Part shown: positions 5,534-36,231 of the stretch, in pieces
Layout: every line of letters starts with the position of its first letter
How positions within the stretch are numbered: the first letter of the stretch is position 1
The notes under the pieces: model-generated
What the model saw: the letters and a program-made list of their open reading frames with translations, nothing else
What the model was told of the DNA's origin: nothing
The model's database searches: none
Program-made: the position numbers and the translations under genes
DNA from: a virus
Reading direction: 5' to 3' (one strand)
Length of the DNA stretch: 36,231 nt
IMG/VR virus record: IMGVR_UViG_3300008113_000317
Location: 1-36,231 of that record

Positions 5534-5567
5534 ACACATGGACACTAAAACTGTCCATGTGTTTTTT
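5534..5567 (+). terminator. rho-independent terminator after portal
   Basis: An 11-bp perfect stem, ACACATGGACA (5534-5544) and TGTCCATGTGT (5552-5562), with a 7-nt loop CTAAAAC, runs straight into TTTTTT (5562-5567). It ends the head-gene unit 20 nt after the portal stop and directly precedes the next promoter module. Confidence 0.9.
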
Positions 5568-5622
5568 GTTAATAACTTTTGGCAAAAAAGTTTGCTATTG
5601 TCAAATCAATTGGTTAATTTTG
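5568..5622 (+). promoter_or_regulatory. Bacteroidota-type promoter with upstream GTTAATAACT box
   Basis: GTTAATAACT 5568-5577, then TTTG 5591-5594 and TAATTTTG 5615-5622, a perfect match to the Bacteroidota housekeeping consensus TTTG/TAnnTTTG with a 20-nt spacer. Box, -33 and -7 elements have the same spacing at 8889-8943 and 27135-27189. It drives the small-gene cluster starting at 5640, about 18 nt downstream. Confidence 0.85.
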
Positions 5623-5639
5623 CTCTATAATTATTCGAT

Positions 5640-5912
5640 ATGGAAATACGCAGATTTGATCGACACGAAAACATGAGTTCCGAAACACTTTCCAAGATCC
5701 TGAATATCATAGGTGATCTTGTAGACATTGAAGCACCAACCAGACAGCTGGAGAACATGCTTTACGGATTCTTCGATGGTTATGACTATACCCAGCAAAT
5801 CATCTTTTCGAAGGATCTTGCAAACGTAACACACGAAAACCCATCACTGGGCGCTAAGATCTCAGAGATCTGTGGTGTTATTGAATCTTACCCTACTTTA
5901 CAAGCTGCTTAA
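5640..5912 (+). CDS. small protein of unknown function (90 aa)
   Basis: First gene after the promoter at 5568-5622. The protein is acidic and probably all helical, with no recognised motif, signal peptide or membrane segment. It contains a regular helix-like stretch LSKILNIIGDLVDIEAP (about residues 18-34). The position in a promoter-headed cluster with the nucleotidyltransferase and clamp loader suggests early or middle expression. Next start lies 2 nt after the stop. Confidence 0.7.
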   Translation: MEIRRFDRHENMSSETLSKILNIIGDLVDIEAPTRQLENMLYGFFDGYDYTQQIIFSKDLANVTHENPSLGAKISEICGVIESYPTLQAA

Positions 5913-5914
5913 AC

Positions 5915-6169
5915 ATGGAAAAACTCAATACATACTTCGCAACGCAAGCAGCCGCTCTTATGGCAGTTGAAGATGAAACTCGCAGACGCGGTTATGATAT
6001 CGTCTATGCTGACCGCCTCTGGGCTGAACATGTTGCATACGGTTCTACCGTCAAGTACAGCTTCCCGCTGACGGTGGTCAAAACAGGAAACGAGGCAAAG
6101 AAGTGGGTACATATCCAAATCTATAGAATGGGATGTGGAAAATACGAACTTAACTTTTACATTGCTTAA
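5915..6169 (+). CDS. small protein of unknown function (84 aa)
   Basis: A compact mixed alpha/beta protein with an alternating hydrophobic C-terminal half (KWVHIQIYRMG then YELNFYIA), suggesting paired beta strands. No family is recognised. It is wedged between another unknown gene and the nucleotidyltransferase, with gaps of 2 and 1 nt, so it is almost surely co-translated with them. Confidence 0.7.
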   Translation: MEKLNTYFATQAAALMAVEDETRRRGYDIVYADRLWAEHVAYGSTVKYSFPLTVVKTGNEAKKWVHIQIYRMGCGKYELNFYIA

Positions 6170-6170
6170 C

Positions 6171-6908
6171 ATGCCACAGATATTCAAAGTAGGCGGATGT
6201 GTTCGAGATGAACTACTCGGCCTACAATCAAAAGACATAGACTTTACCTTCGTTCTTGACGATCTTACACAGACCGTTGAAGAAGGTTTTCAGCAAATGA
6301 CTGACTGGATGACTCATGAAGGATTTCAGATCTTTCTATCCACACCCGACTGCTTTACTATCAGAGCAAAGTTTCCGCAGGATAGTCCTAACGCTGGACT
6401 TGTCGCTGACTTTGTGATGGCTCGCAAAGAAATCGGCTACATGGAAGGCACTCGTCGTCCAATCTTAGCGCTTGGAAGTCTGGAAGATGACTTGCTTCGC
6501 AGGGACTTTACCCTGAATGCCATGGCAGTAGATGAAGACGGTAATCTGATAGACTTATTTGGCGGCAGAGAAGATTTGGAACGCAGGCTGCTTAGAACAC
6601 CGTTGCCAGCCGCTCAAACCATGATGGACGATCCACTTAGAATCATGCGTGCTCTGAGGTTTAAGATCACTAAAGGTTTCAGCATCGCAGACGAAATCTG
6701 GTTGGCTATGATGCAGCCTGAGATACTGGAAAAACTCAGGACTACTGTTAGCGCCGAAAGAATCAGAGAAGAACTTATCAAGATGATGAAGCATGATACC
6801 GTTGCGACTCTTAAACTTTTGCATCTTGTGGAATCTAGGTCTATACCAGGTTTCTTGGATCTGATATTCGACCGAGGACTGTGGCTGAAACCAACATTTG
6901 AACTTTAA
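6171..6908 (+). CDS. CCA-adding/poly(A)-polymerase-type nucleotidyltransferase, head and neck only
   Basis: The 245-residue protein has the class II tRNA nucleotidyltransferase/poly(A) polymerase signature: VGGCVRDELLG (residues 7-17), the catalytic pair D22-x-D24, a third acidic site in VADFVMAR (D80), RRDFTLNAMA (110-119), the nucleotide-selecting DDPLRIMRALRF (153-164) and an ERIREEL helix near 203. Such enzymes add CCA or A residues to RNA 3' ends. The usual body and tail domains that grip tRNA (cellular enzymes are about 400 residues) are absent. Start set at ATG 6171, one nt after the previous stop and 6 residues before the GG motif; an upstream in-frame GTG at 6135 would overlap the preceding gene. 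Substrate is unknown; phage tRNA repair or polyadenylation are both possible. Confidence 0.85.
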   Translation: MPQIFKVGGCVRDELLGLQSKDIDFTFVLDDLTQTVEEGFQQMTDWMTHEGFQIFLSTPDCFTIRAKFPQDSPNAGLVADFVMARKEIGYMEGTRRPILALGSLEDDLLRRDFTLNAMAVDEDGNLIDLFGGREDLERRLLRTPLPAAQTMMDDPLRIMRALRFKITKGFSIADEIWLAMMQPEILEKLRTTVSAERIREELIKMMKHDTVATLKLLHLVESRSIPGFLDLIFDRGLWLKPTFEL

Positions 6909-7280: not shown

Positions 7281-8231
7281 ATGATCGGAGAACTATTTAC
7301 TGAAAAGTACAGACCAAAGAAACTTGAGCAGATGATCCTGCCCGAACGTATCCGCAAATCAATCGGAGACGGAGTGTTACATCAGAACTATTTGTTCTAT
7401 GGATCGCCAGGATTAGGTAAGACTTCTTTGGCAAAGGTGCTTGCAGCAAACTATCCTTTCTTATACATAAACGTATCCGATGAAAGTTCGGTCGACATCA
7501 TACGCGAGAAAATCACCAACTGGTGTTCTACCATCAGTCTTCTTGATGGCGCAGAAATGTTTAAGGTAGTCATTCTTGATGAGATGGACGGTGCTTCTGA
7601 CCAATTCTACAAAGCTCTTCGTGCCACCATCGAAAAGTTTGCAGCTACTGCTCGTTTCATAGGAACTTGTAACTATATCAACAAAGTTCCTGAGCCCGTT
7701 CAGTCTCGTTTTACTTGCATTAACTTTGACTTCTTAAGCAAAGAAGAAGAAAAAGAAGTTATGGTCGAGTTCATCAAACGCTCTTGGGCAATCTTTAAGT
7801 CATGTGGTATCGAAATCGAAAAGGACGCAATCGTCGAGTTCGTAAAAAGAAACTTTCCTGACATGCGTTCTATCGTGAACAAGATACAGACATTTGCGAT
7901 CCAAGGCGTCAAAAAGATCGAGGCAAATGATGTTAAGAAGCTGAACTACTCATTCCGCGATATCTTTGAAATGATATGTAAGTCAGGCGATCCTCAAGAG
8001 AACTATAAGTTTCTGATGACCAACTATTCATCAAAAGTTGACGATGTACTATTTGCTTTAGGAAACGAACTTCCTGACTACTTGAGAGACAATCAGCCTG
8101 CCAAGGTGGCTAAGATACCGCAGATCCTGATTAAAGTCGCACACTACCAATCACAGCGAGTTCATGTGATAGATCCAGCGATCTCTATGCTTGCCGCTGT
8201 GTATGAGTGCCAAATAATCCTAAATCAATAA
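7281..8231 (+). CDS. 44: sliding clamp loader large subunit, T4 gp44-like AAA+ ATPase
   Basis: The 316-residue protein loads the DNA polymerase sliding clamp on primer-template DNA using ATP. It opens with the clamp-loader motif FTEKYRPKKL and has Walker A GSPGLGKT (41-48), Walker B VVILDEMD with D100/E101, sensor 1 in GTCNYINKV (about 128-136) and the SRF motif (142-144) that supplies the arginine finger (the SRC motif of cellular loaders). The C-terminal half carries the helical lid and collar. T4 gp44 is 319 residues, nearly identical in length. A GAATATAAAC element at about 7254 may drive it, but matches the late motif poorly. T4 gp62, its small partner, is not recognisable next to it. 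Confidence 0.93.
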   Translation: MIGELFTEKYRPKKLEQMILPERIRKSIGDGVLHQNYLFYGSPGLGKTSLAKVLAANYPFLYINVSDESSVDIIREKITNWCSTISLLDGAEMFKVVILDEMDGASDQFYKALRATIEKFAATARFIGTCNYINKVPEPVQSRFTCINFDFLSKEEEKEVMVEFIKRSWAIFKSCGIEIEKDAIVEFVKRNFPDMRSIVNKIQTFAIQGVKKIEANDVKKLNYSFRDIFEMICKSGDPQENYKFLMTNYSSKVDDVLFALGNELPDYLRDNQPAKVAKIPQILIKVAHYQSQRVHVIDPAISMLAAVYECQIILNQ

Positions 8232-8651: not shown

Positions 8652-8893
8652 ACCGCGTATCAGACCTAAAGAACTACATTTCGTCAACGTATCCTGCTCT
8701 TTCAAAAGCAAAATTTGACATCGCCAAAATCGGCGCTAGAATCTACATTTACTTGGTGGACCGCCAAGGAAACCTGCAAAGAGAGCCGCTGTTCCGCGGA
8801 GCTCTTCCTACCGTGAATGAGCTTCCTGCTTTAAAGAAACAGCTCGAGGCTAACATCAAGGCAGTCATGGTCAAGTGGGAATACAATTGTTAA
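8648..8893 (+). CDS. small protein of unknown function (81 aa)
   Basis: Starts inside the stop of the KTSC gene (ATGA overlap at 8648-8651). It has a helix (VSDLKNYISSTYPALSKAKF) followed by a beta hairpin (RIYIYLVDRQGN) and a final helix. No family recognised. The stop codon lies inside the GTTAATAACT box of the next promoter. Confidence 0.65.
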   Translation: MNRVSDLKNYISSTYPALSKAKFDIAKIGARIYIYLVDRQGNLQREPLFRGALPTVNELPALKKQLEANIKAVMVKWEYNC

Positions 8894-8943
8894 TAACTAA
8901 TCACAAGTAAATTTGCTACTGTAAAATACATTGGTTAAATTTA
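8889..8943 (+). promoter_or_regulatory. Bacteroidota-type promoter with upstream GTTAATAACT box
   Basis: GTTAATAACT 8889-8898, TTTG 8912-8915, then 20 nt and TAAATTTA 8936-8943 (7 of 8 to TAnnTTTG). Spacing is identical to the copies at 5568 and 27135. It lies 16 nt before the RNase H start codon and overlaps the end of the previous gene. Confidence 0.8.
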
Positions 8944-8959
8944 CACTATAAATCAAAAT

Positions 8960-10066
8960 ATGAATCTTATATTCGACGGCAACTACCTTTTCTACAAAAC
9001 GCTATTCATCTTTGGAGGTTACGGCTCCAAAGGTAAAGTTCTGGAAGAAAAGAAAGAACAAGAAATGTTCATCAGAAAAGTCGCAACCGACTTTTCACAC
9101 GCTATCCGTACTTTCGGCAATCCCGACCGCATAGTTTTTACAATCGACTCTCGTTCGTGGAGAAAAGAAATCGAAATTGAGGACGGTGCATACAAAGGAC
9201 ATCGCGAAGAAAAGACTTCCACAATCGACTGGGACTCTTTCTATTCCTGTATGAACGAGTTTGGCGAGATCCTCAAAGCCAAAGGCATCATCGTGTCTCG
9301 CGAAGAACGCGCCGAAGGCGATGATCTTATGTACCTGTGGGCTCAGAAATTCTACGAAGAAGGACAAGACTCGGTTATCGTAACCGGTGACCGTGACTTG
9401 ACACAATGTGTTCAGTTCGATGGTAAAAACTTTGTGGTTGTCTACAACCCTAACTCTAAGAGCCGCAAGATCGTAGCTCCTGAAGGTTTTCAAGCTTGGC
9501 TCAAGAACGAAGAATACGATCTGTTCGACGCAAGCACTTATATGAACCGCAGCAAAGACCTAATCGTCGAAGCAACCAGCTCTGTTCCAGTCGAAGAAAT
9601 CGACCGCAAGTACATCATATTCGAAAAGGTAATCACTGGTGATGCAGGTGACGCAGTTCCACCGATCTGGTCCTGGACAAAAGAAGGCAAAACATTCCGA
9701 GTGACTGCTTCCAAAGCCAAACGAATGTACGACATTCTCAACATGGTAAAACCCGTCACTGATGTTTATGACTTGCCTAATCGCGCAGCAGAAGTTGCTA
9801 GCTCAATCGAGGCGACATGCAAACAATCAGCTCCTGCTGCAGTCATCAAGACAAGACTCGAGAGAAACCTTCAGTTGGTATTCCTCGATGATCGCATCTT
9901 ACCTACCGACATACAGGAGAAGTTCCGCTCTTCTTTCGACAAGGCTTGGGAGAACAAAGAGCTGGGAGCTCGCACATACGATATGAACGCTCTTCTTGAA
10001 GGCACTCGATTCGTCAGCAACGGACGAACCTTTGAAGCAGATATTTTCTCACAATTCAAATTCTAA
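8960..10066 (+). CDS. rnh: 5'-3' exonuclease / RNase H (FEN family)
   Basis: This 368-residue protein belongs to the flap-endonuclease family used by T4-like phages to remove RNA primers from Okazaki fragments. Metal-binding acidic residues are visible at D6 (FDGNY), D63 (TIDSRSWRK), E119/D121/D122 (AEGDDL), D144/D146 (TGDRDL) and D228/D231 (ITGDAGDAVPP), which is the full two-metal set, followed by the helix-hairpin-helix-like region. The basic RSWRK and the K-x-H-R at residues 79-82 match the helical arch. T4 RNase H is 305 residues; the extra length is mainly an insert at about 175-215 and a C-terminal extension. Driven by its own promoter at 8889-8943. Confidence 0.9.
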   Translation: MNLIFDGNYLFYKTLFIFGGYGSKGKVLEEKKEQEMFIRKVATDFSHAIRTFGNPDRIVFTIDSRSWRKEIEIEDGAYKGHREEKTSTIDWDSFYSCMNEFGEILKAKGIIVSREERAEGDDLMYLWAQKFYEEGQDSVIVTGDRDLTQCVQFDGKNFVVVYNPNSKSRKIVAPEGFQAWLKNEEYDLFDASTYMNRSKDLIVEATSSVPVEEIDRKYIIFEKVITGDAGDAVPPIWSWTKEGKTFRVTASKAKRMYDILNMVKPVTDVYDLPNRAAEVASSIEATCKQSAPAAVIKTRLERNLQLVFLDDRILPTDIQEKFRSSFDKAWENKELGARTYDMNALLEGTRFVSNGRTFEADIFSQFKF

Positions 10067-21312: not shown

Positions 21313-24300
21313 ATGTCTGTTGCCAACCAGGCTAACGAAAAGCTAACCCAACTTGTCACTCTCACTGCAAAGATAGAGAGCTATCTTAACCCTGCGAAAA
21401 AGGGTAAAGGCGGAGGACAAGCTGGCGCACAGGTTGCCGGAGACGGTGCAACTGGAGGTGGTGGAGTCAACAGAATCAAAGAAGCCATAGCAGTGGGCGG
21501 AATGGCCCAGTCACTTGCTATGTTCTTTAAAGAATACACCAAGTCAAAACTCGGCGACGGTGAAAAGGTCAAGCAACTTTTGATCAACCTCTCGGATGGT
21601 ATGCGCCAAGCGTACGATAAAATCAAAGAGATAGACGAAAAAGAAATGTTAAACAAAATCAGCACTGTCATTAAAGGCATTGCTGGTTTTTCTTTGACCA
21701 TGGTTCTCTTAAGTCTTGCCGCTGTTCCTTTTGCTCTGGGGATACTTGTGTTTTCTCTGGGGATCAGTGCGATGAATATGATCTTCAACCTTTTAGTTAA
21801 GGACACTAAGAAGACCGATGAAGCATTGGGCATATTAGGAAAGATCGGACAGGGCGCTGCGTTGTTTACACTTGCGATGGTCTTAATTGGCTATACCGCT
21901 CCTGCTTTTGCGTTGGGAGTCATTGTCTTCACACTTGCCGTTAGTGGTATGCTTCTTGTTTTCAGCTTATTAGGAAGTACAAAAGTTAAGAAGACTGTTA
22001 CTGATTCCATGCAGATCATTTTCGATATGGCAAAAGGCGCTGCCTTCTTTGCGCTCTCTATGATTCTAATCGGAATCACTGCTCCTCTATTTGCATTTGG
22101 TGTAGTTGTGTTTACTTTAGCAATTTCCGCCATGATATTGGTGTTTAGCTTATTGAACGGCGTTAAGAAACAAGTCAGAGATTCTCTTCAGCTGATTCTG
22201 TCTATGTCGACAGATATAGCGATATTTGCGTTAACCATGACGTTGATTGGATTAGTCGCTCCTCTGTTCGCATTAGGTACGATTGTCTTTACACTTGCAC
22301 TGGCCGCAGTCATGGGAGTTCTGATTCTTGCTGGGAAATTCGACAAGCAACTAAGTAAAGGTGTTAAGGCACTTGATATGATGGCGATACCTATTGCCAT
22401 TCTTGCTGGCGTATTCCTCATTGTAGGACTTGTTTGGGAACCCGTTCTGAAAGGTGGAGCAACTGTGGCCGCAACTATTCTTTTAGTCGGAACAGCGACA
22501 GCACTTATTGGAATGATGGATAAAAACGTCAAGAAAGGCATTAAGACGCTTGATCAGATGATCCTGCCTGTCTTAGCTTTTGCAGGCGCTCTTCTAATCA
22601 TTGGATTGATACCAACAGATCCGTTAGAATTGTTACTTAAGGTGGGTGTAATGGCTGTTGCTATTACTGTGCTCGGGTTGGCTGCATTTGTACTAGGGCT
22701 TCCAGCAGTAGCGCCTTTCGCAACAGCTGGTGCTGCCGTATTAGTTACTTTGACAGTACCTATGATCGTATTTGCAGCTGCACTCTTCATAATATCTAAA
22801 GCAACATTTACCAAAGAGTCCATCATCAACCTTGGAATGGCAATCGGTGTCATAGGAGTTGCGATGGCTGGTATGGGTCTACTTGCGCCTTTTATTCTAA
22901 TAGGAAGTGCTGTGATGGCCGTAGCCGCTGTCGCTCTTCTACCTATCACTGCGTCATTAGCGATATTTAAGTCTATAGGTTGGAAAGAATCGGACGGCGA
23001 ATCTCTTAAGAATTCTTTGAAAAGTACAGTGCAAGCATTCGCACATGCATTGGACGGAGTCGGTATCACAGGTATGTTTAAGCTACTCGCTGCTATTCCA
23101 ATAGTCGCTTTGTTGGGACTGTCTCTTACAGCCCTTGCGATGGGAATCAAAGCGATGGCTACCATGACTTTCACCGAAATGGAGTGGGACGATAAAGAAA
23201 AGAAACTCATTCCAAAGCGACAAGTCAAACTCACAGACGCTGAAATTCAGGCTGTAGGTCCTAATGTCGCATCCATACTTAACGCACTTGCTGATCCTCT
23301 TCTGGAATTTGGTAAGAAAGCAGCGGAAGGACCATTATCTTTGTTTGGTCTGGGCTACATGGCCCAAGGTATCAAAGCAGCCGCTGGAATCGGTGAAGTA
23401 ATTTCTTCTCTTGCGAAAGGCGTTGCTGACATGGCAAAACTTAACGTCGTCGAGTACCAAGTAAAAGACGGTAAGCTGGTTCCAAAGTCGGTAAGAAAAC
23501 TTACTCCGCTTGACTTTGTGATGGCAGGAATCAACACAGGATTGATTCTAGACGCATTGGCGGTTCCTCTTACGAGATTTGGTATGTACGCTTCGTTGGG
23601 CGAAGGCATATTCTCCAGCGGTTACATGGAGAAAGGTATTGAAGCCGCAAGCAAAGTAGGAAATGCGATAGCATCTATCGCCAAAGGAGTCTCCGACATG
23701 GCCAACTTGACCGTCGTTGAAAACCAAGTAAAAGACGGTAAGTTAGTTCCAAAAAGCTCAAGACAGCTGACAGATGCTGACTTTACTCTTGCCGGCGAAA
23801 ATGTTGGCAAAATTCTAAAAGCATTGGTAGTCCCGTTGACCGATTTTGGAAAAGCCTGGGAAGACGGCAGCAGTTGGTTCAGCAACAGTTATTTAGAATC
23901 AGCGGTCAAAGGTATAAACGCGGTCACAGATCCTATCTCTAAGTTGGCTAAGATGATCACTGAACTGGCGTCAGGAAACGCCGTGGTCAGTGAAGTAAAA
24001 GACGGCAAGTTAGTTCCAAAGCAAGCAATATCTTTTGCTGATGCAGTGCCTAAAGCAACCGCAGCGATTAGTGAACTCCTTACAGCTTTGCCTAAATCAC
24101 TTACGGCATTTGGACAATCATACGAAAACGACAAAGACGCGATAACTTCAGGAATCGATGCGATCGGCATCATAGCTGGTTCTGTGAACAAGATAGCAGA
24201 CTTTGGTAAGAATTACATAGAAAGAAAGGCTGACATTGAAGGCTCTATTGAAGGAGCGAAAAAGTTGGTGCCTGCTTCGGCCGACATGGTCAAGATACTT

Positions 24301-26700: not shown

Positions 26701-27139
26701 CGTCTTTTCTGAAATCACTAAAGAGATCGCCGCACTTTCAGTTGCATCAAGACTGAAAGTCGGCGCTATCGCTGTTAGGAAAGATTTTTCCAAGATAGCC
26801 TCCTTTGGCTACAACGGAAGTTATTCCAACGCACCGATCAATGAAAACACCGGAACCGAGGAAGAAAGCTTGATACCTGGTGAAAGTGGAATGATACATG
26901 CTGAGATCAATTTAATTGCCAAGTTTCGGGAGAACGATCCAGAGAACTACGCAATCATAATATCTCACTCTCCTTGCAAGATGTGCACCAAAGTTTTGGT
27001 CAATGCAGGATTCAGAAACATTCATTGGTTGGAGGAATACCGGGATACGTCTCACCTCACTGAGATTTTTGAAAGAACTGGTGTAGCAGGATGTAACGTA
27101 AAAGATCTGACAGATTCTTTTGGTTGTATAAATTGTTAA
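26642..27139 (+). CDS. dCMP/cytidine deaminase family protein
   Basis: The 165-residue protein has the zinc-site residues of the deoxycytidylate deaminase family: HAE (86-88) in MIHAEINLI, and PCKMC (101-105) in SHSPCKMCTKVLVNAG. The N-terminal ASRLKVGAIAVR (about 35-46) and FGYNGSYSNAP segments are also family marks. dCMP deaminase supplies dUMP for dTMP synthesis and is common in T4-like phages. Start set at ATG 26642, which overlaps the preceding gene by 59 nt; a TTG at 26612 would add ten residues. No ATG exists between 26642 and the conserved core, so the long overlap seems real. The stop is inside the GTTAATAACT box of the next promoter. Confidence 0.82.
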   Translation: MSQKLTQDKNNQQRFQQKINVFSEITKEIAALSVASRLKVGAIAVRKDFSKIASFGYNGSYSNAPINENTGTEEESLIPGESGMIHAEINLIAKFRENDPENYAIIISHSPCKMCTKVLVNAGFRNIHWLEEYRDTSHLTEIFERTGVAGCNVKDLTDSFGCINC

Positions 27140-27189
27140 TAACTTAAAAGAAAAAAGTTTGCTGCTAAAGATTTTTATAGTTATATTTG
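27135..27189 (+). promoter_or_regulatory. Bacteroidota-type promoter with upstream GTTAATAACT box
   Basis: GTTAATAACT 27135-27144, TTTG 27158-27161, 20 nt, TATATTTG 27182-27189 (perfect TAnnTTTG). Same distances as the other two copies. It drives the ECF sigma gene starting at 27210, 20 nt downstream, and overlaps the stop of the deaminase. Confidence 0.85.
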
Positions 27190-27209: not shown

Positions 27210-27824
27210 ATGCATAAGGAACCTCAAAAAGAAATGTCGCTGCAAGAGATGGGCTTGCGTTTTTATCAATCCCGTCAAGAAAATGATTTTACGAGAGTTT
27301 ACAACAGGCTTCGTCCTAGTATCTCTTACTACCTTAGAGAACTCGTGCCGCAGCACGATGATCGCAACGAAGTGATAGCCACCACATTCGCTAAAGTTTG
27401 GAACAAGATCGAACAGTATGATCCGTATTGGAACTTCAGTACTTGGGTCTATCGCATCGCCCGCAATGAAGCTTTGCTTTTCCACAGAGGTCGCAAGAAA
27501 ACGTATTCGTACGAAGCGATGGAAGAAAAAGGTATCAACATGGAGAAACATTCCTCTTATGAACAAACGTTCGAACATGAAGAGGATCCTATTGATTCTT
27601 TATACGATCAAGCTGTCATCGCTATCCAAGATCTTCCAGAGATCTATCGCACTGTCTTGACTCTTCGTGAGATTCAAAAGAAAAAGTACGAAGACATTGC
27701 CGAAGAACTAGGCTGGAAACACAACACGGTTAGGACAAGAATTCGCAAAGCACGCGAGCTTGTTCGGGTCAGTCTCTTAAAGAAAGATCCAGAGCTCGTT
27801 AAAAAATACCAACAATCAATATGA
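27210..27824 (+). CDS. ECF-type RNA polymerase sigma factor
   Basis: The 204-residue protein has both sigma-70 regions that define extracytoplasmic-function factors. Region 2 (about 25-95) includes LRPSISYYLRELV, EVIATTFAKVWNKIEQYDP (-10 contact helix) and NFSTWVYRIARNEALLFHRG. Region 4 (about 135-190) has IQDLPEIYRTVLTLREIQ and the helix-turn-helix KYEDIAEELGWKHNTVRTRIRKARELV. Between them is an acidic linker. Regions 1.1 and 3 are absent, as usual for ECF factors. It has its own early-type promoter and is followed by a membrane protein that overlaps by 4 nt, the classic place for an anti-sigma factor. It is distinct from the gp55-like factor at 2313. Confidence 0.88.
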   Translation: MHKEPQKEMSLQEMGLRFYQSRQENDFTRVYNRLRPSISYYLRELVPQHDDRNEVIATTFAKVWNKIEQYDPYWNFSTWVYRIARNEALLFHRGRKKTYSYEAMEEKGINMEKHSSYEQTFEHEEDPIDSLYDQAVIAIQDLPEIYRTVLTLREIQKKKYEDIAEELGWKHNTVRTRIRKARELVRVSLLKKDPELVKKYQQSI

Positions 27825-31923: not shown

Positions 31924-34900
31924 GTGGCTACTGAAACAAATTTGATAACCTCCTTCGTTAGGAGAATAAGTAAGTATTTTCTTTCCGACACTGCGACCTG
32001 GTATAGACCTCGCAGCGTTGAACCTGGTTTAAACCACATAGACGATCCCACCGCTTTCGATGAAAAGACCATCTACAAGGGCGAAGAAATCGTCGATCTT
32101 GACAAAGGTCGCTTGTTCACACAGGACGGTGCAGAAATCATCGAACTAAATACCGATGACGCAATTCTTAACGGCTTACTTGTTAGAGAATCTGCTTCAC
32201 TTTCGGGAGGACCTCTTTGGCTAACTGTTGAATCAGGCTCTGCAAGAATCAACGGAAGAACTTACTGGCACAAGCAATCTGAAGCCAGCGGCGATATCCA
32301 AATTTCGCCGAATCCTAGCACGACTCAATCAAGAATCGATGTAATTACAATATCCAGCAATTACCCCGTTCCTGCTACCGGGGTCACTGGTATGCCCGCT
32401 AATGCAACAGAATACTCGGGACAGATAAATTACCATCAAGGAACCGCAAGTCGTCCAGGAAGACCCATCACATTCAAAGGAAACGTTACCAACGGATCCG
32501 ACATAATAACATTCTCTGGAGGAACAGGCGCTGTAAGTGGAATAAACGCGGGAGACATCATCGTCGGAAGTGGAATTGCTTCGCAGGCAACCGTCTTGGT
32601 AGTGACCACCACGCATATTCAGATAAGCACATCGTTTGCTTCTACCGCCAATGATGTTGCTTTTGCGATTGCGATAAATCTTTTAGGACAAGATATTGCG
32701 TTTTTTGCGTCTGGCTCTACAGGATCAAACGCTCTTACATTGATCGGAGGATCTACGCCGGCAGTTGGAGATTTGGTATACGGGTATGGTTTTGACTTTG
32801 GGACAGAAGTTACCAACGTTTCAGGATCCACAATAACAGTTTCAGAAAACTGTACAGTGGGTGGGGACAACATATATGGTCTAGGAGACGCTGCTGACGT
32901 TGCGATATACCAACCAATAATTATACCAGACGGTGAACTTGTTCTTGCTGCGGTTATCGTACCGCCTAATTACACAGGTGCGTCTGCGCAAAACAAATTA
33001 AGACCTTTTAGCGTTAGCCAGATATGGAAGACGTTTGGCATAGCCGCACAAGATGTTCCCACTATACTGGAGACTTTAAGACAAAGCGTATCATATTACA
33101 CAACTGACACATCTTACGCATCTGATCAAATAGTTATAGATCGCTTAACCCACGGGGTCTATCAAGTAGTACGAAATCATTACAGCTCTACATTGACTTC
33201 GTCCGTCTCCAACGGAGACATGATATCAGTGTCAAGCACCGGAGGCGGAGGAGGTGGGGGCGTAAGTACTTCAGGATCTTCAGGATCTTCAGGAACTTCA
33301 GGAACCTCGGGTTCTGGAACTTCTGGATCATCGGGAACTAGCGGTTATGGTTTTATTTGGCAAGGAACATGGAACATAGCAAACCCATACGCGCTAAATG
33401 ACGTTGTAGTCTACAACGGTGATGTATATGCAGCGATTGGAACAATTTTACCAGGAGGATCAACACCAGACATAAATCCTTCGTGGGACCTGTGGGTTGT
33501 ATCAGGATCAAGCGGATCATCTGGTTCTTCAGGAACTTCAGGAACCGACGGAACTTCAGGAACCGACGGAACTTCAGGAACCGACGGAACCTCGGGCACA
33601 AACGGAACTTCAGGAACCGATGGTACATCAGGGAGCTCGGGATCTTCAGGGACATCTGGGTCTTCAGGAACTTCGGGAAGCTCAGGAATAGATGGGACAT
33701 CTGGATCTTCAGGAACATCTGGTTCTAGCGGAACTTCTGGCACAGACGGAACCTCGGGCACAAACGGAACATCAGGCACAGACGGAACTTCAGGAACCGA
33801 TGGTACATCAGGGAGCTCGGGATCTTCGGGGACATCGGGATCTTCGGGGACATCTGGATCTTCAGGAATAGATGGGACATCTGGATCTTCAGGAACATCG
33901 GGCAGCTCAGGAACATCGGGCAGCTCGGGAACAGACGGAACATCTGGATCTTCAGGAACTTCAGGCAGCTCAGGAACTGATGGGACATCAGGGAGCTCGG
34001 GATCTTCAGGCACAAGTGGATCATCAGGAACTTCGGGAAGCTCAGGAACAGACGGAACTTCAGGATCTAGTGGCACAAGCGGATCTTCCGGAACAGACGG
34101 AACTTCAGGATCTAGTGGCACAAGCGGATCTTCCGGAACAGACGGAACGTCAGGATCTTCGGGAACGTCAGGAAGCTCAGGAACAGACGGAACTTCAGGA
34201 TCTTCGGGCACAAGCGGTTCTAGTGGAACAGACGGAACTTCAGGATCTTCGGGCACAAGCGGTTCTAGTGGAACAGACGGAACTTCGGGATCTTCAGGAT
34301 CTAGCGGAACTTCGGGCAGCTCCGGAACAGACGGAACTTCAGGATCTTCAGGCACAAGCGGGTCAAGTGGGTCAAGTGGGTCAAGCGGATCATCAGGCAC
34401 ATCTGGTTCTTCAGGATCTTCAGGCACAAGCGGATCTTCAGGCACAAGCGGATCTTCAGGAACTTCTGGTAGCTCAGGAATAGACGGAACTTCAGGATCT
34501 TCAGGATCTTCAGGCACAAGCGGATCTTCGGGAACATCAGGTAGCTCGGGTTCATCAGGAACATCAGGCAGCTCAGGAACGTCAGGATCTTCGGGAAGCT
34601 CGGGAACAAGTGGATCTAGTGGAACTTCTGGTTCATCAGGAACGTCTGGTTCTAGTGGAACTTCTGGTTCATCAGGAACGTCTGGCTCTTCGGGAACATC
34701 AGGGAGCTCTGGAACTTCTGGCTCTAGTGGATCTTCAGGCACATCTGGATCTTCAGGAACGTCAGGTAGCTCAGGAACGTCAGGTAGCTCAGGAACATCT
34801 GGTTCTAGCGGTTCTTCAGGAACTTCAGGTTCATCAGGCAGCTCGGGTTCATCAGGAACTTCGGGCAGCTCAGGAACTTCAGGATCTAGTGGAACTTCAG

Positions 34901-36231
34901 GATCTAGTGGAACATCAGGTAGCTCGGGTTCATCAGGATCCGCAGGAACTTCGGGCAGTAGCGGTTCTTCTGGCATCAGCGGTATAAGTGGAACCGACGG
35001 TTCCAGTGGAACATCGGGATCTAGCGGAACATCGGGATCTAGCGGAACATCGGGATCTTCGGGATCCAGCGGATCTAGTGGAAGCTCGGGTACCTCGGGT
35101 AGCTCAGGAACAAGCGGATCTAGCGGAACGTCAGGTTCTAGTGGATCATCAGGTTCTAGCGGATCTTCAGGTAGCTCAGGATCATCAGGATCATCAGGCA
35201 GCTCAGGAACAAGCGGATCTTCAGGCAGCTCAGGAACAAGTGGTTCATCAGGATCCAGTGGTTCATCAGGATCCAGCGGTACTTCAGGAAGCTCGGGCAC
35301 ATCGGGATCGTCAGGATCGTCAGGTACGTCTGGCTCTTCAGGATCCAGCGGAACCTCAGGTAGCTCAGGAACTTCAGGATCCAGCGGAACCTCAGGTAGC
35401 TCAGGATCATCAGGGACTTCAGGCAGCTCAGGATCATCAGGCACTTCAGGATCTTCGGGCACGTCAGGAATATCAGGTGTTGATGGAACTTCAGGCACAT
35501 CAGGATCGTCAGGATCTAGCGGCACAAGCGGATCATCAGGAACTTCTGGTTCTAGTGGAACATCAGGCAGTTCGGGCACGTCAGGATCTTCGGGCAGCTC
35601 TGGATCATCGGGTAGCTCGGGAACTTCAGGATCGTCAGGTAGCTCAGGCACTTCAGGATCCAGCGGAACCTCAGGTAGCTCGGGAACTTCAGGATCATCA
35701 GGATCATCGGGCAGCTCAGGAAGTTCAGGATCATCGGGATCATCGGGCAGCTCAGGATCATCAGGCACCTCAGGATCTTCGGGCACGTCAGGATCTTCGG
35801 GCACGTCAGGTAGCTCAGGAACGTCAGGTTCTTCGGGATCATCAGGTACATCGGGGAGTTCAGGATCTAGCGGCACAAGCGGGTCTTCAGGAACTAGCGG
35901 TATTTCAGGGGTCGATGGAACTTCAGGAACCAGTGGTTCTAGCGGATCATCTGGCTCAAGCGGATCTAGTGGCACAAGTGGTTCTTCGGGATCCTCGGGA
36001 TCCTCGGGCACGAGTGGTTCTTCAGGATCATCGGGTTCTTCGGGTTCTTCAGGAACCAGCGGAACTTCTGGTTCTAGTGGCACATCAGGTAGCTCGGGAA
36101 CTTCGGGTTCTTCGGGATCCTCGGGCACAAGCGGATCATCCGGTTCTTCGGGTTCTTCGGGTTCTTCAGGAACCAGTGGAACTTCTGGTTCTAGTGGCAC
36201 ATCAGGCAGTTCGGGCACATCAGGCAGTTCG
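31924..36231 (+). CDS. giant collagen-like tail fibre / adhesin, open at the window end
   Basis: From GTG 31924 (one nt after the preceding stop) the frame is open to the last base, 1436 codons without a stop, so the gene continues past the window. Residues 1-80 resemble fibre attachment regions (GRLFTQDGAEIIELN). Residues about 80-440 are beta-rich, with two copies of a 'VGD/AGD-hh-G-x-G-(I/F)...G-x-x-V-x-x-V' unit near 200 and 280. A Gly7 run and first GSSGTSG repeats start near 440. Residues 479-527 form a carbohydrate-binding-like module (W-x-G-x-W...Y-x-x-x-DVV-x-Y-x-G-x-x-Y-x-A...W-x-L-W). From about 527 to the end are collagen-type Gly-X-Y triplets, mainly GTS, GSS and GTD. The likely role is a long flexible receptor-binding shaft. 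No signal peptide is seen; the GTG start is the first possible after an in-frame TAG at 31909. Confidence 0.85.
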   Translation, partial: MATETNLITSFVRRISKYFLSDTATWYRPRSVEPGLNHIDDPTAFDEKTIYKGEEIVDLDKGRLFTQDGAEIIELNTDDAILNGLLVRESASLSGGPLWLTVESGSARINGRTYWHKQSEASGDIQISPNPSTTQSRIDVITISSNYPVPATGVTGMPANATEYSGQINYHQGTASRPGRPITFKGNVTNGSDIITFSGGTGAVSGINAGDIIVGSGIASQATVLVVTTTHIQISTSFASTANDVAFAIAINLLGQDIAFFASGSTGSNALTLIGGSTPAVGDLVYGYGFDFGTEVTNVSGSTITVSENCTVGGDNIYGLGDAADVAIYQPIIIPDGELVLAAVIVPPNYTGASAQNKLRPFSVSQIWKTFGIAAQDVPTILETLRQSVSYYTTDTSYASDQIVIDRLTHGVYQVVRNHYSSTLTSSVSNGDMISVSSTGGGGGGGVSTSGSSGSSGTSGTSGSGTSGSSGTSGYGFIWQGTWNIANPYALNDVVVYNGDVYAAIGTILPGGSTPDINPSWDLWVVSGSSGSSGSSGTSGTDGTSGTDGTSGTDGTSGTNGTSGTDGTSGSSGSSGTSGSSGTSGSSGIDGTSGSSGTSGSSGTSGTDGTSGTNGTSGTDGTSGTDGTSGSSGSSGTSGSSGTSGSSGIDGTSGSSGTSGSSGTSGSSGTDGTSGSSGTSGSSGTDGTSGSSGSSGTSGSSGTSGSSGTDGTSGSSGTSGSSGTDGTSGSSGTSGSSGTDGTSGSSGTSGSSGTDGTSGSSGTSGSSGTDGTSGSSGTSGSSGTDGTSGSSGSSGTSGSSGTDGTSGSSGTSGSSGSSGSSGSSGTSGSSGSSGTSGSSGTSGSSGTSGSSGIDGTSGSSGSSGTSGSSGTSGSSGSSGTSGSSGTSGSSGSSGTSGSSGTSGSSGTSGSSGTSGSSGTSGSSGTSGSSGTSGSSGSSGTSGSSGTSGSSGTSGSSGTSGSSGSSGTSGSSGSSGSSGTSGSSGTSGSSGTSGSSGTSGSSGSSGSAGTSGSSGSSGISGISGTDGSSGTSGSSGTSGSSGTSGSSGSSGSSGSSGTSGSSGTSGSSGTSGSSGSSGSSGSSGSSGSSGSSGSSGTSGSSGSSGTSGSSGSSGSSGSSGTSGSSGTSGSSGSSGTSGSSGSSGTSGSSGTSGSSGTSGSSGSSGTSGSSGSSGTSGSSGTSGISGVDGTSGTSGSSGSSGTSGSSGTSGSSGTSGSSGTSGSSGSSGSSGSSGTSGSSGSSGTSGSSGTSGSSGTSGSSGSSGSSGSSGSSGSSGSSGSSGTSGSSGTSGSSGTSGSSGTSGSSGSSGTSGSSGSSGTSGSSGTSGISGVDGTSGTSGSSGSSGSSGSSGTSGSSGSSGSSGTSGSSGSSGSSGSSGTSGTSGSSGTSGSSGTSGSSGSSGTSGSSGSSGSSGSSGTSGTSGSSGTSGSSGTSGSS
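33358..33504 (+). other. CBM5/12-like carbohydrate-binding module inside the fibre
   Basis: Residues about 479-527 of the fibre. The aromatic pattern W-x-G-x-W...Y-x-x-x-D-V-V-x-Y-x-G-x-x-Y-x-A, then G-x-x-P...W-D-L-W, is that of small chitin/cellulose-binding modules of the CBM5/12 type. It is flanked on both sides by Gly-Ser-Thr repeats, which argues for a separately folded module on a flexible shaft. Confidence 0.6.
33505..36231 (+). repeat. collagen-like Gly-X-Y coding repeat (9-nt based)
   Basis: Over 2.7 kb the + strand reads as Gly followed by two of Thr/Ser/Asp/Asn, e.g. GTSGTDGTSG, GSSGTSGSSG. Rare departures are GID (about 33685, 33865, 34477), GSA (about 34936), GIS (about 34972, 34981, 35467, 35899) and GVD (about 35476, 35908). 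There are near-exact longer duplications, such as a 117-nt copy linking about 36034-36098 with 36151-36215. Asp-bearing GTD triplets are frequent up to about 34350 and scarce afterwards. Confidence 0.9.

Follow-up and report, generated by a model that had tools for sequence, protein, structure and literature searches.

In T4, middle promoters (MotA box, AsiA) carry an added box upstream of a -10-type element, serve replication and nucleotide genes, and are accompanied by separate late promoters; the MotA box, near -30, takes the place of the -35 element. The UP elements and class I activator sites of E. coli occupy one helix face in steps of about one turn, and sites for the C-terminal domain of the RNA polymerase alpha subunit (alpha-CTD) are phased with the helix, near -45, -55, and -65. 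In strong Bacteroides phage promoters, Whitaker et al. reportedly described in 2017 a GTTAA motif that precedes TAnnTTTG by roughly 45-50 nt. The Bacteroidota sigma-A (sigma-ABfr) core consists of a -33 TTTG and a -7 TAnnTTTG (PMC7366714, PMC9723704), and in Flavobacterium this -7 element spans -12 to -5 (PMC9723704).

We analyzed a stretch of viral DNA of 36,231 bases, the IMG/VR virus record IMGVR_UViG_3300008113_000317 (referred to as the window). The window is a piece of a T4-like tailed phage genome, since it encodes a portal protein, a terminase, head closure and DNA end protector proteins, and also a clamp loader, a tRNA nucleotidyltransferase, an RNase H-type exonuclease, and a sigma factor. 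A megablast search with its first 25 kb returned no match to known phages. The closest relatives of the terminase (32-40% identity) come from Lak phages of Prevotella and from huge uncultured phages, and these relatives, together with the TAnnTTTG core, point to a host that is probably a member of the Bacteroidota.

The original prediction held that the same 10-mer precedes TTTG by 23 nt at 5568, 8889, and 27135, and that TTTG is followed at rigid spacing by TAnnTTTG or a form with one mismatch. We confirmed both: exact GTTAATAACT (the box) begins at these three positions, always on the + strand and nowhere else in the window, and at all three sites its start lies 23 nt from the -33 TTTG and 47 nt from the TA of the -7 element (Table 1). 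TTTG stands about 20 nt before TAnnTTTG at every site, with one mismatch in TAAATTTA, so that core elements and spacing are as in Bacteroidota sigma-A promoters. The strict, phased GTTAATAACT box is an addition to this known core, as had been supposed, since the passages of the sigma-A reports that we searched describe the core alone (PMC7366714, PMC9723704). Cores of the form TTTG-N20-TAnnTTTG with zero or one mismatch are common throughout the window, and the box is therefore the informative part of these promoters. First-order Markov simulations give a chance expectation for exact GTTAATAACT of 0.047 per window on both strands, and the full box and core pattern was absent from all 150 simulated windows of the same dinucleotide make-up. 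A repeat search grouped the three sites as one 65-nt family, with 78% and 68% identity to the reference copy. Two of the boxes make use of the stop codon of the upstream gene, again as predicted, with the TAA lying within GTTAA; a box start 3-9 nt from such a stop codon is the usual arrangement in related phages. This overlap reflects the compactness of the genome.

Table 1. Promoter elements and associated genes in the window
Feature	Position	Strand	Remarks
Terminator-like hairpin, ACACATGGACA-CTAAAAC-TGTCCATGTGT and T-run	5534..5567	+	3' of portal gene, adjoins box 1; read from sequence
Box 1, GTTAATAACT	5568..5577	+	
Promoter 1 -33 element TTTG	5591..5594	+	
Promoter 1 -7 element TAATTTTG	5615..5622	+	
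90-aa protein, no assigned function	5640..5912	+	First gene of promoter 1
84-aa protein, no assigned function	5915..6169	+	Second gene of promoter 1 unit
tRNA nucleotidyltransferase-like protein	6135..6908	+	phrog_24229; real start possibly 6171
DNA polymerase clamp loader	7281..8231	+	phrog_168
Box 2, GTTAATAACT	8889..8898	+	Holds TAA stop of gene ending 8893
Promoter 2 -33 element TTTG	8912..8915	+	
Promoter 2 -7 element TAAATTTA	8936..8943	+	One mismatch to TAnnTTTG
5'-3' exonuclease / RNase H-type protein	8960..10066	+	PF02739, phrog_107
Box 3, GTTAATAACT	27135..27144	+	Holds TAA stop of dCMP deaminase gene ending 27139
Promoter 3 -33 element TTTG	27158..27161	+	
Promoter 3 -7 element TATATTTG	27182..27189	+	
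Sigma factor, regions 2 and 4	27210..27824	+	PF04542, PF08281; phrog_1740

The three promoters precede the clamp-loader unit, the exonuclease, and the sigma factor. The second of these had been called RNase H; it is more exactly a 5'-3' exonuclease-family protein, of the family to which T4 RNase H belongs. The 90-aa and 84-aa genes of promoter 1 are box-driven also in an otherwise different viral record, G309 (62% identity). In related phages, we found the box upstream of genes for an NAD-dependent DNA ligase, nicotinate phosphoribosyltransferase (NAPRTase), two RNA ligases, a kinase, a phosphoesterase, UvdE, and a 5'-3' exonuclease, as well as a phosphoribosyltransferase-domain protein that reads as PRPP synthetase. 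No structural gene was recognized among the phage box-served genes that we examined. The window promoters thus resemble T4 middle promoters in having an added sequence-specific box, in serving replication and nucleotide genes, and in standing apart from late-type promoters. They differ in where the box lies: taking the Flavobacterium -7 element as -12 to -5 places it at about -59 to -50, with the -33 TTTG still present downstream.

To judge conservation, we relied chiefly on relatives of the sigma gene and on whole records, since the individual IMG/VR loci had been fetched by exact box. Among 21 relatives of the sigma gene, found through the sigma protein and not through the box, the upstream box is exact in 16, has the one-letter variant GTTAAAAACT in three, is weak in one, and is absent in one. 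In all 19 exact or one-letter cases the distance from box to -7 element is 46-47 nt, even where the -33 TTTG has become TTTT or GTTT; at the sigma gene the box is thus better conserved than the -33 element, unlike a plain sigma-A core. Across 14 related viral records, the matches listed comprise 72 on the gene strand against one for a reversed-pattern control, and nearly all of the listed gene-strand matches have the 47-nt spacing. All nine exact boxes of the full record G302 (106 kb) are on the gene strand, eight with a spacing of exactly 47 nt, and this spacing also holds for most or all of the exact boxes found in G309 and in the window. The original prediction had named absence of the box in relatives that keep the core as evidence against it; we found this once, at the G302 RNase H promoter, and not for the sigma gene, where 19/21 keep the box. 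One-mismatch variants are rare at phage positions, and flanking bases lengthen the consensus to about TTGTTAATAACTTT.

The distance between box and core follows the DNA helix. The pattern box-N13-TTTG-N20-TAnnTTT occurs in 88 IMG/VR stretches, with three or more copies on several contigs, and when the gap between box and TTTG was left free it peaked at 3, 13, and 23 nt, one DNA turn apart, with few boxes in between (counts for gaps 3-12 are at least the values obtained). Some phages carry two boxes 21 nt apart. The reverse-complement box was never found at phased positions in the IMG/VR loci, which rules out a symmetric palindrome as the nature of the box. Nor is the box a universal element of Bacteroidota phages, since 13 cultured members of this group lack it, as do five large or crAss-like phages. 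The GTTAA element attributed to Whitaker et al. is possibly a looser form of the box, and if an upstream element of this type has already been described for a Bacteroides phage promoter, the novelty of the box could be lowered. We found no enrichment of GTTAA at that distance (~45-50 nt) in six cultured phages or in host segments.

Bacterial chromosomes carry the box as well. When 84,980 genomes were scanned for the full pattern, 40 stretches were returned, 39 of them in Bacteroidota as judged by record title. When the genes behind these stretches were read, greA was the most frequent and B12-type ribonucleotide reductase was found five times, with prs, dnaE, dnaB, nrdB, pyrB, and rpoD among the others; since greA and rpoD bear the box in some Bacteroidota, the host set is not purely one of replication genes. 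Among the matches listed for 199 Flavobacteriaceae genomes, the distance from box to TA peaks sharply at 37, 47, and 57, and 127/150 fall within 1 nt of one of these values (binomial p ~1e-38, a figure that ignores shared ancestry). The genes downstream, read at sites that were picked from the match lists and not at random, include dnaX, gyrB, dnaN, dnaB, a dnaQ-type gene, trxB, tkt, a putative HU/SPOR-like gene, and a few others. At the loci where position was read by gene (L465-L499 and L500-L559), the helical position tends to be gene-specific, mostly 56-57 for gyrB and dnaX, about 47 for tkt and dnaN, and 37 for trxB and the dnaQ-type gene.

We also examined orthologous promoters in genomes chosen without regard to the box. 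dnaX and gyrB were located by protein in 80 genomes, and the best 30 matches per gene were read wherever the start was recognized. The box is kept at 56-58 nt in 19 of the 20 dnaX promoters read, once as TGTTAATAATT, and TGTT(A/G)ATAA(C/T) is kept at 56-58 nt in most of the 28 gyrB promoters read. Conservation at fixed phase is thus found before orthologous replication genes. Exact boxes are nonetheless rare per chromosome: two genomes had only two relaxed matches each, and the box with a full core is very rare in a phylum-wide sample of 395 genomes. Upstream of ordinary sigma-A promoters, examined in ~0.8 Mb of host DNA and in six cultured phages, GTTAA is not enriched. These scarce matches and the lack of GTTAA enrichment led us to reject a general Bacteroidota promoter element.

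We propose that the box is a host activator site for replication and dNTP genes that has been co-opted for phage early/middle genes, and we assign this reading a probability of about 0.58. The box (extended consensus TTGTTAATAACTTT) would bind an activator sequence-specifically and would stand one, two, or three turns of the helix ahead of an ordinary sigma-A core; in the window phage the distance is two turns, and the box is centered near -55. The protein that binds it is most likely host-encoded; a host factor is favored over a phage MotA-like protein because host promoters use the same site and phase. This putative factor would normally activate dnaX, gyrB, dnaN, dnaB, the dnaQ-type gene, trxB, tkt, ribonucleotide reductase, and prs, and the copied site would let host RNA polymerase and the factor transcribe the phage early/middle genes, namely, the clamp-loader unit, the exonuclease, and the sigma factor. 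The phage sigma may next read separate GATATATA(G/A)A promoters ahead of structural genes. It is a reasonable inference that an early/middle class is transcribed by host polymerase and a late class with the phage sigma. More tentatively, and with somewhat less than even confidence, we suggest that the box marks an undescribed Bacteroidota replication regulon, in which a candidate activator would act on TGTT(A/G)ATAACTT located one to three helical turns ahead of the sigma-A promoters of dnaX, gyrB, dnaN, dnaB, trxB, tkt, ribonucleotide reductase, and prs, and whose best site would have been copied independently by several phage lineages onto replication and sigma genes. To our knowledge, no such regulon for replication and nucleotide supply is known in Bacteroidota, and in the literature that we searched the core is documented while a description of the strict phased box was not found. 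If the proposal is correct, it offers a cis-element, and hence a handle on a protein, for joint control of replication and nucleotide supply in Bacteroidota, and it would mean that phages tap the host replication program through a copied regulatory site, without an activator of their own. Being strict, portable, and tied to set distances, the 10-bp box would then also lend itself to promoter design in Bacteroidota.

DnaA is a serious candidate for the host factor. On this account, which we regard as unlikely overall, the box is a DnaA-box variant through which DnaA would co-activate replication genes and the phage copies. On the reverse strand the box reads TTATTAACA, one base off the DnaA box TTATnCACA, and the host genes that it serves resemble a DnaA-type replication set. 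In addition, a consensus DnaA box, TTTTnCACA, precedes TGTTRATAACTT in many gyrB promoters (Flavobacteriaceae loci L530-L559), at a constant distance of 15-16 nt and in inverted orientation. However, the phage box keeps its one mismatch to TTATnCACA, neither of the stronger DnaA forms, GTGGATAACT and GTTGATAACT, ever takes its place at phage positions, and dnaX and phage promoters lack an adjoining DnaA box.

A contact for alpha-CTD that resembles an UP element and involves no dedicated regulator appears improbable to us. The box positions (though not any function) match the helical steps of UP elements and class I sites, with gaps of 3/13/23 in viruses and box-to-TA distances of 37/47/57 in hosts, and phasing at about -45, -55, and -65, set relative to the core, fits alpha-CTD sites. 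UP elements, however, are A+T-rich, loose, and common at strong promoters, whereas the box is near-invariant, far stricter than either UP elements or class I sites, asymmetric, and tied to host replication genes. The lack of GTTAA enrichment at ordinary host or cultured-phage sigma-A promoters also speaks against this account, and alpha-CTD contact alone leaves the functional clustering of the host genes unexplained.

The suggestion that the box serves as an activator site or polymerase contact has held up and can be sharpened to an orientation-specific, near-invariant, and helically phased site, but its comparison with a phage-specific MotA-like system has not. A phage-encoded activator of this kind would recognize the box and turn on middle genes, and we consider it quite improbable. 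The served genes are non-structural and a separate late-type motif exists, as in the T4 program, and box density is far higher in these phages than in chromosomes. Against this, the box also precedes host replication genes, where its helical positions are the same, and in this it differs from the MotA box. PF09114 (MotA) had no match in seven records, a search in which no positive control matched and in which the records may be fragments, and no protein common to the window, G302, G309, and G300 that could act as a shared phage regulator was seen on comparison. Finally, recent duplication of one promoter, with the box kept by descent alone, would account for the 68-78% identity of the 65-nt stretches to their reference copy but is hardly tenable, being contradicted by gap choices that follow the helix and by the constancy of the box itself across many phage lineages and host orthologues in which the flanking sequence has diverged.

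The motif GATATATA(G/A)A occurs in the window at 63, 3889, 10896, 15416, 19958, 21284, 24935, 28261, and 31474 (all +), as AATATATA at 63 and 24935, and stands shortly before mostly structural genes. GATATATA is strongly biased between strands, with eight copies on + versus none on - in the window, 13 versus 1 in G302, and 12 versus 2 in G309. It looks like a T4 late promoter, and transcription from it may use the phage sigma.

A terminator-like hairpin lies between box and -7 element in 12 of 99 box promoters from phages, compared to 0.3 expected from mononucleotide shuffling; about nine of the 12 are convincing. The -33 position lies in or beside the loop of these nested hairpins, and transcripts from upstream may end inside the next promoter. 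Sites in G302 are at 22300, 83655, 90300, and 91610 (reversed coordinates; L367-L372 region), and others were seen in G301, G303, G305, G307, and G309. Five G302 core promoters without the box are preceded by a different element, AAGTTTAACAAAAATTTAACATT, an 11-bp direct repeat of TTTAACA (reversed coordinates 92287, 93116, 101925, 104012, and 106285). At the end of the window, positions 33411-36231 form a long degenerate repeat of GGAACTTCAGGATC-type units, in which the minus strand is open as a 935-aa frame.
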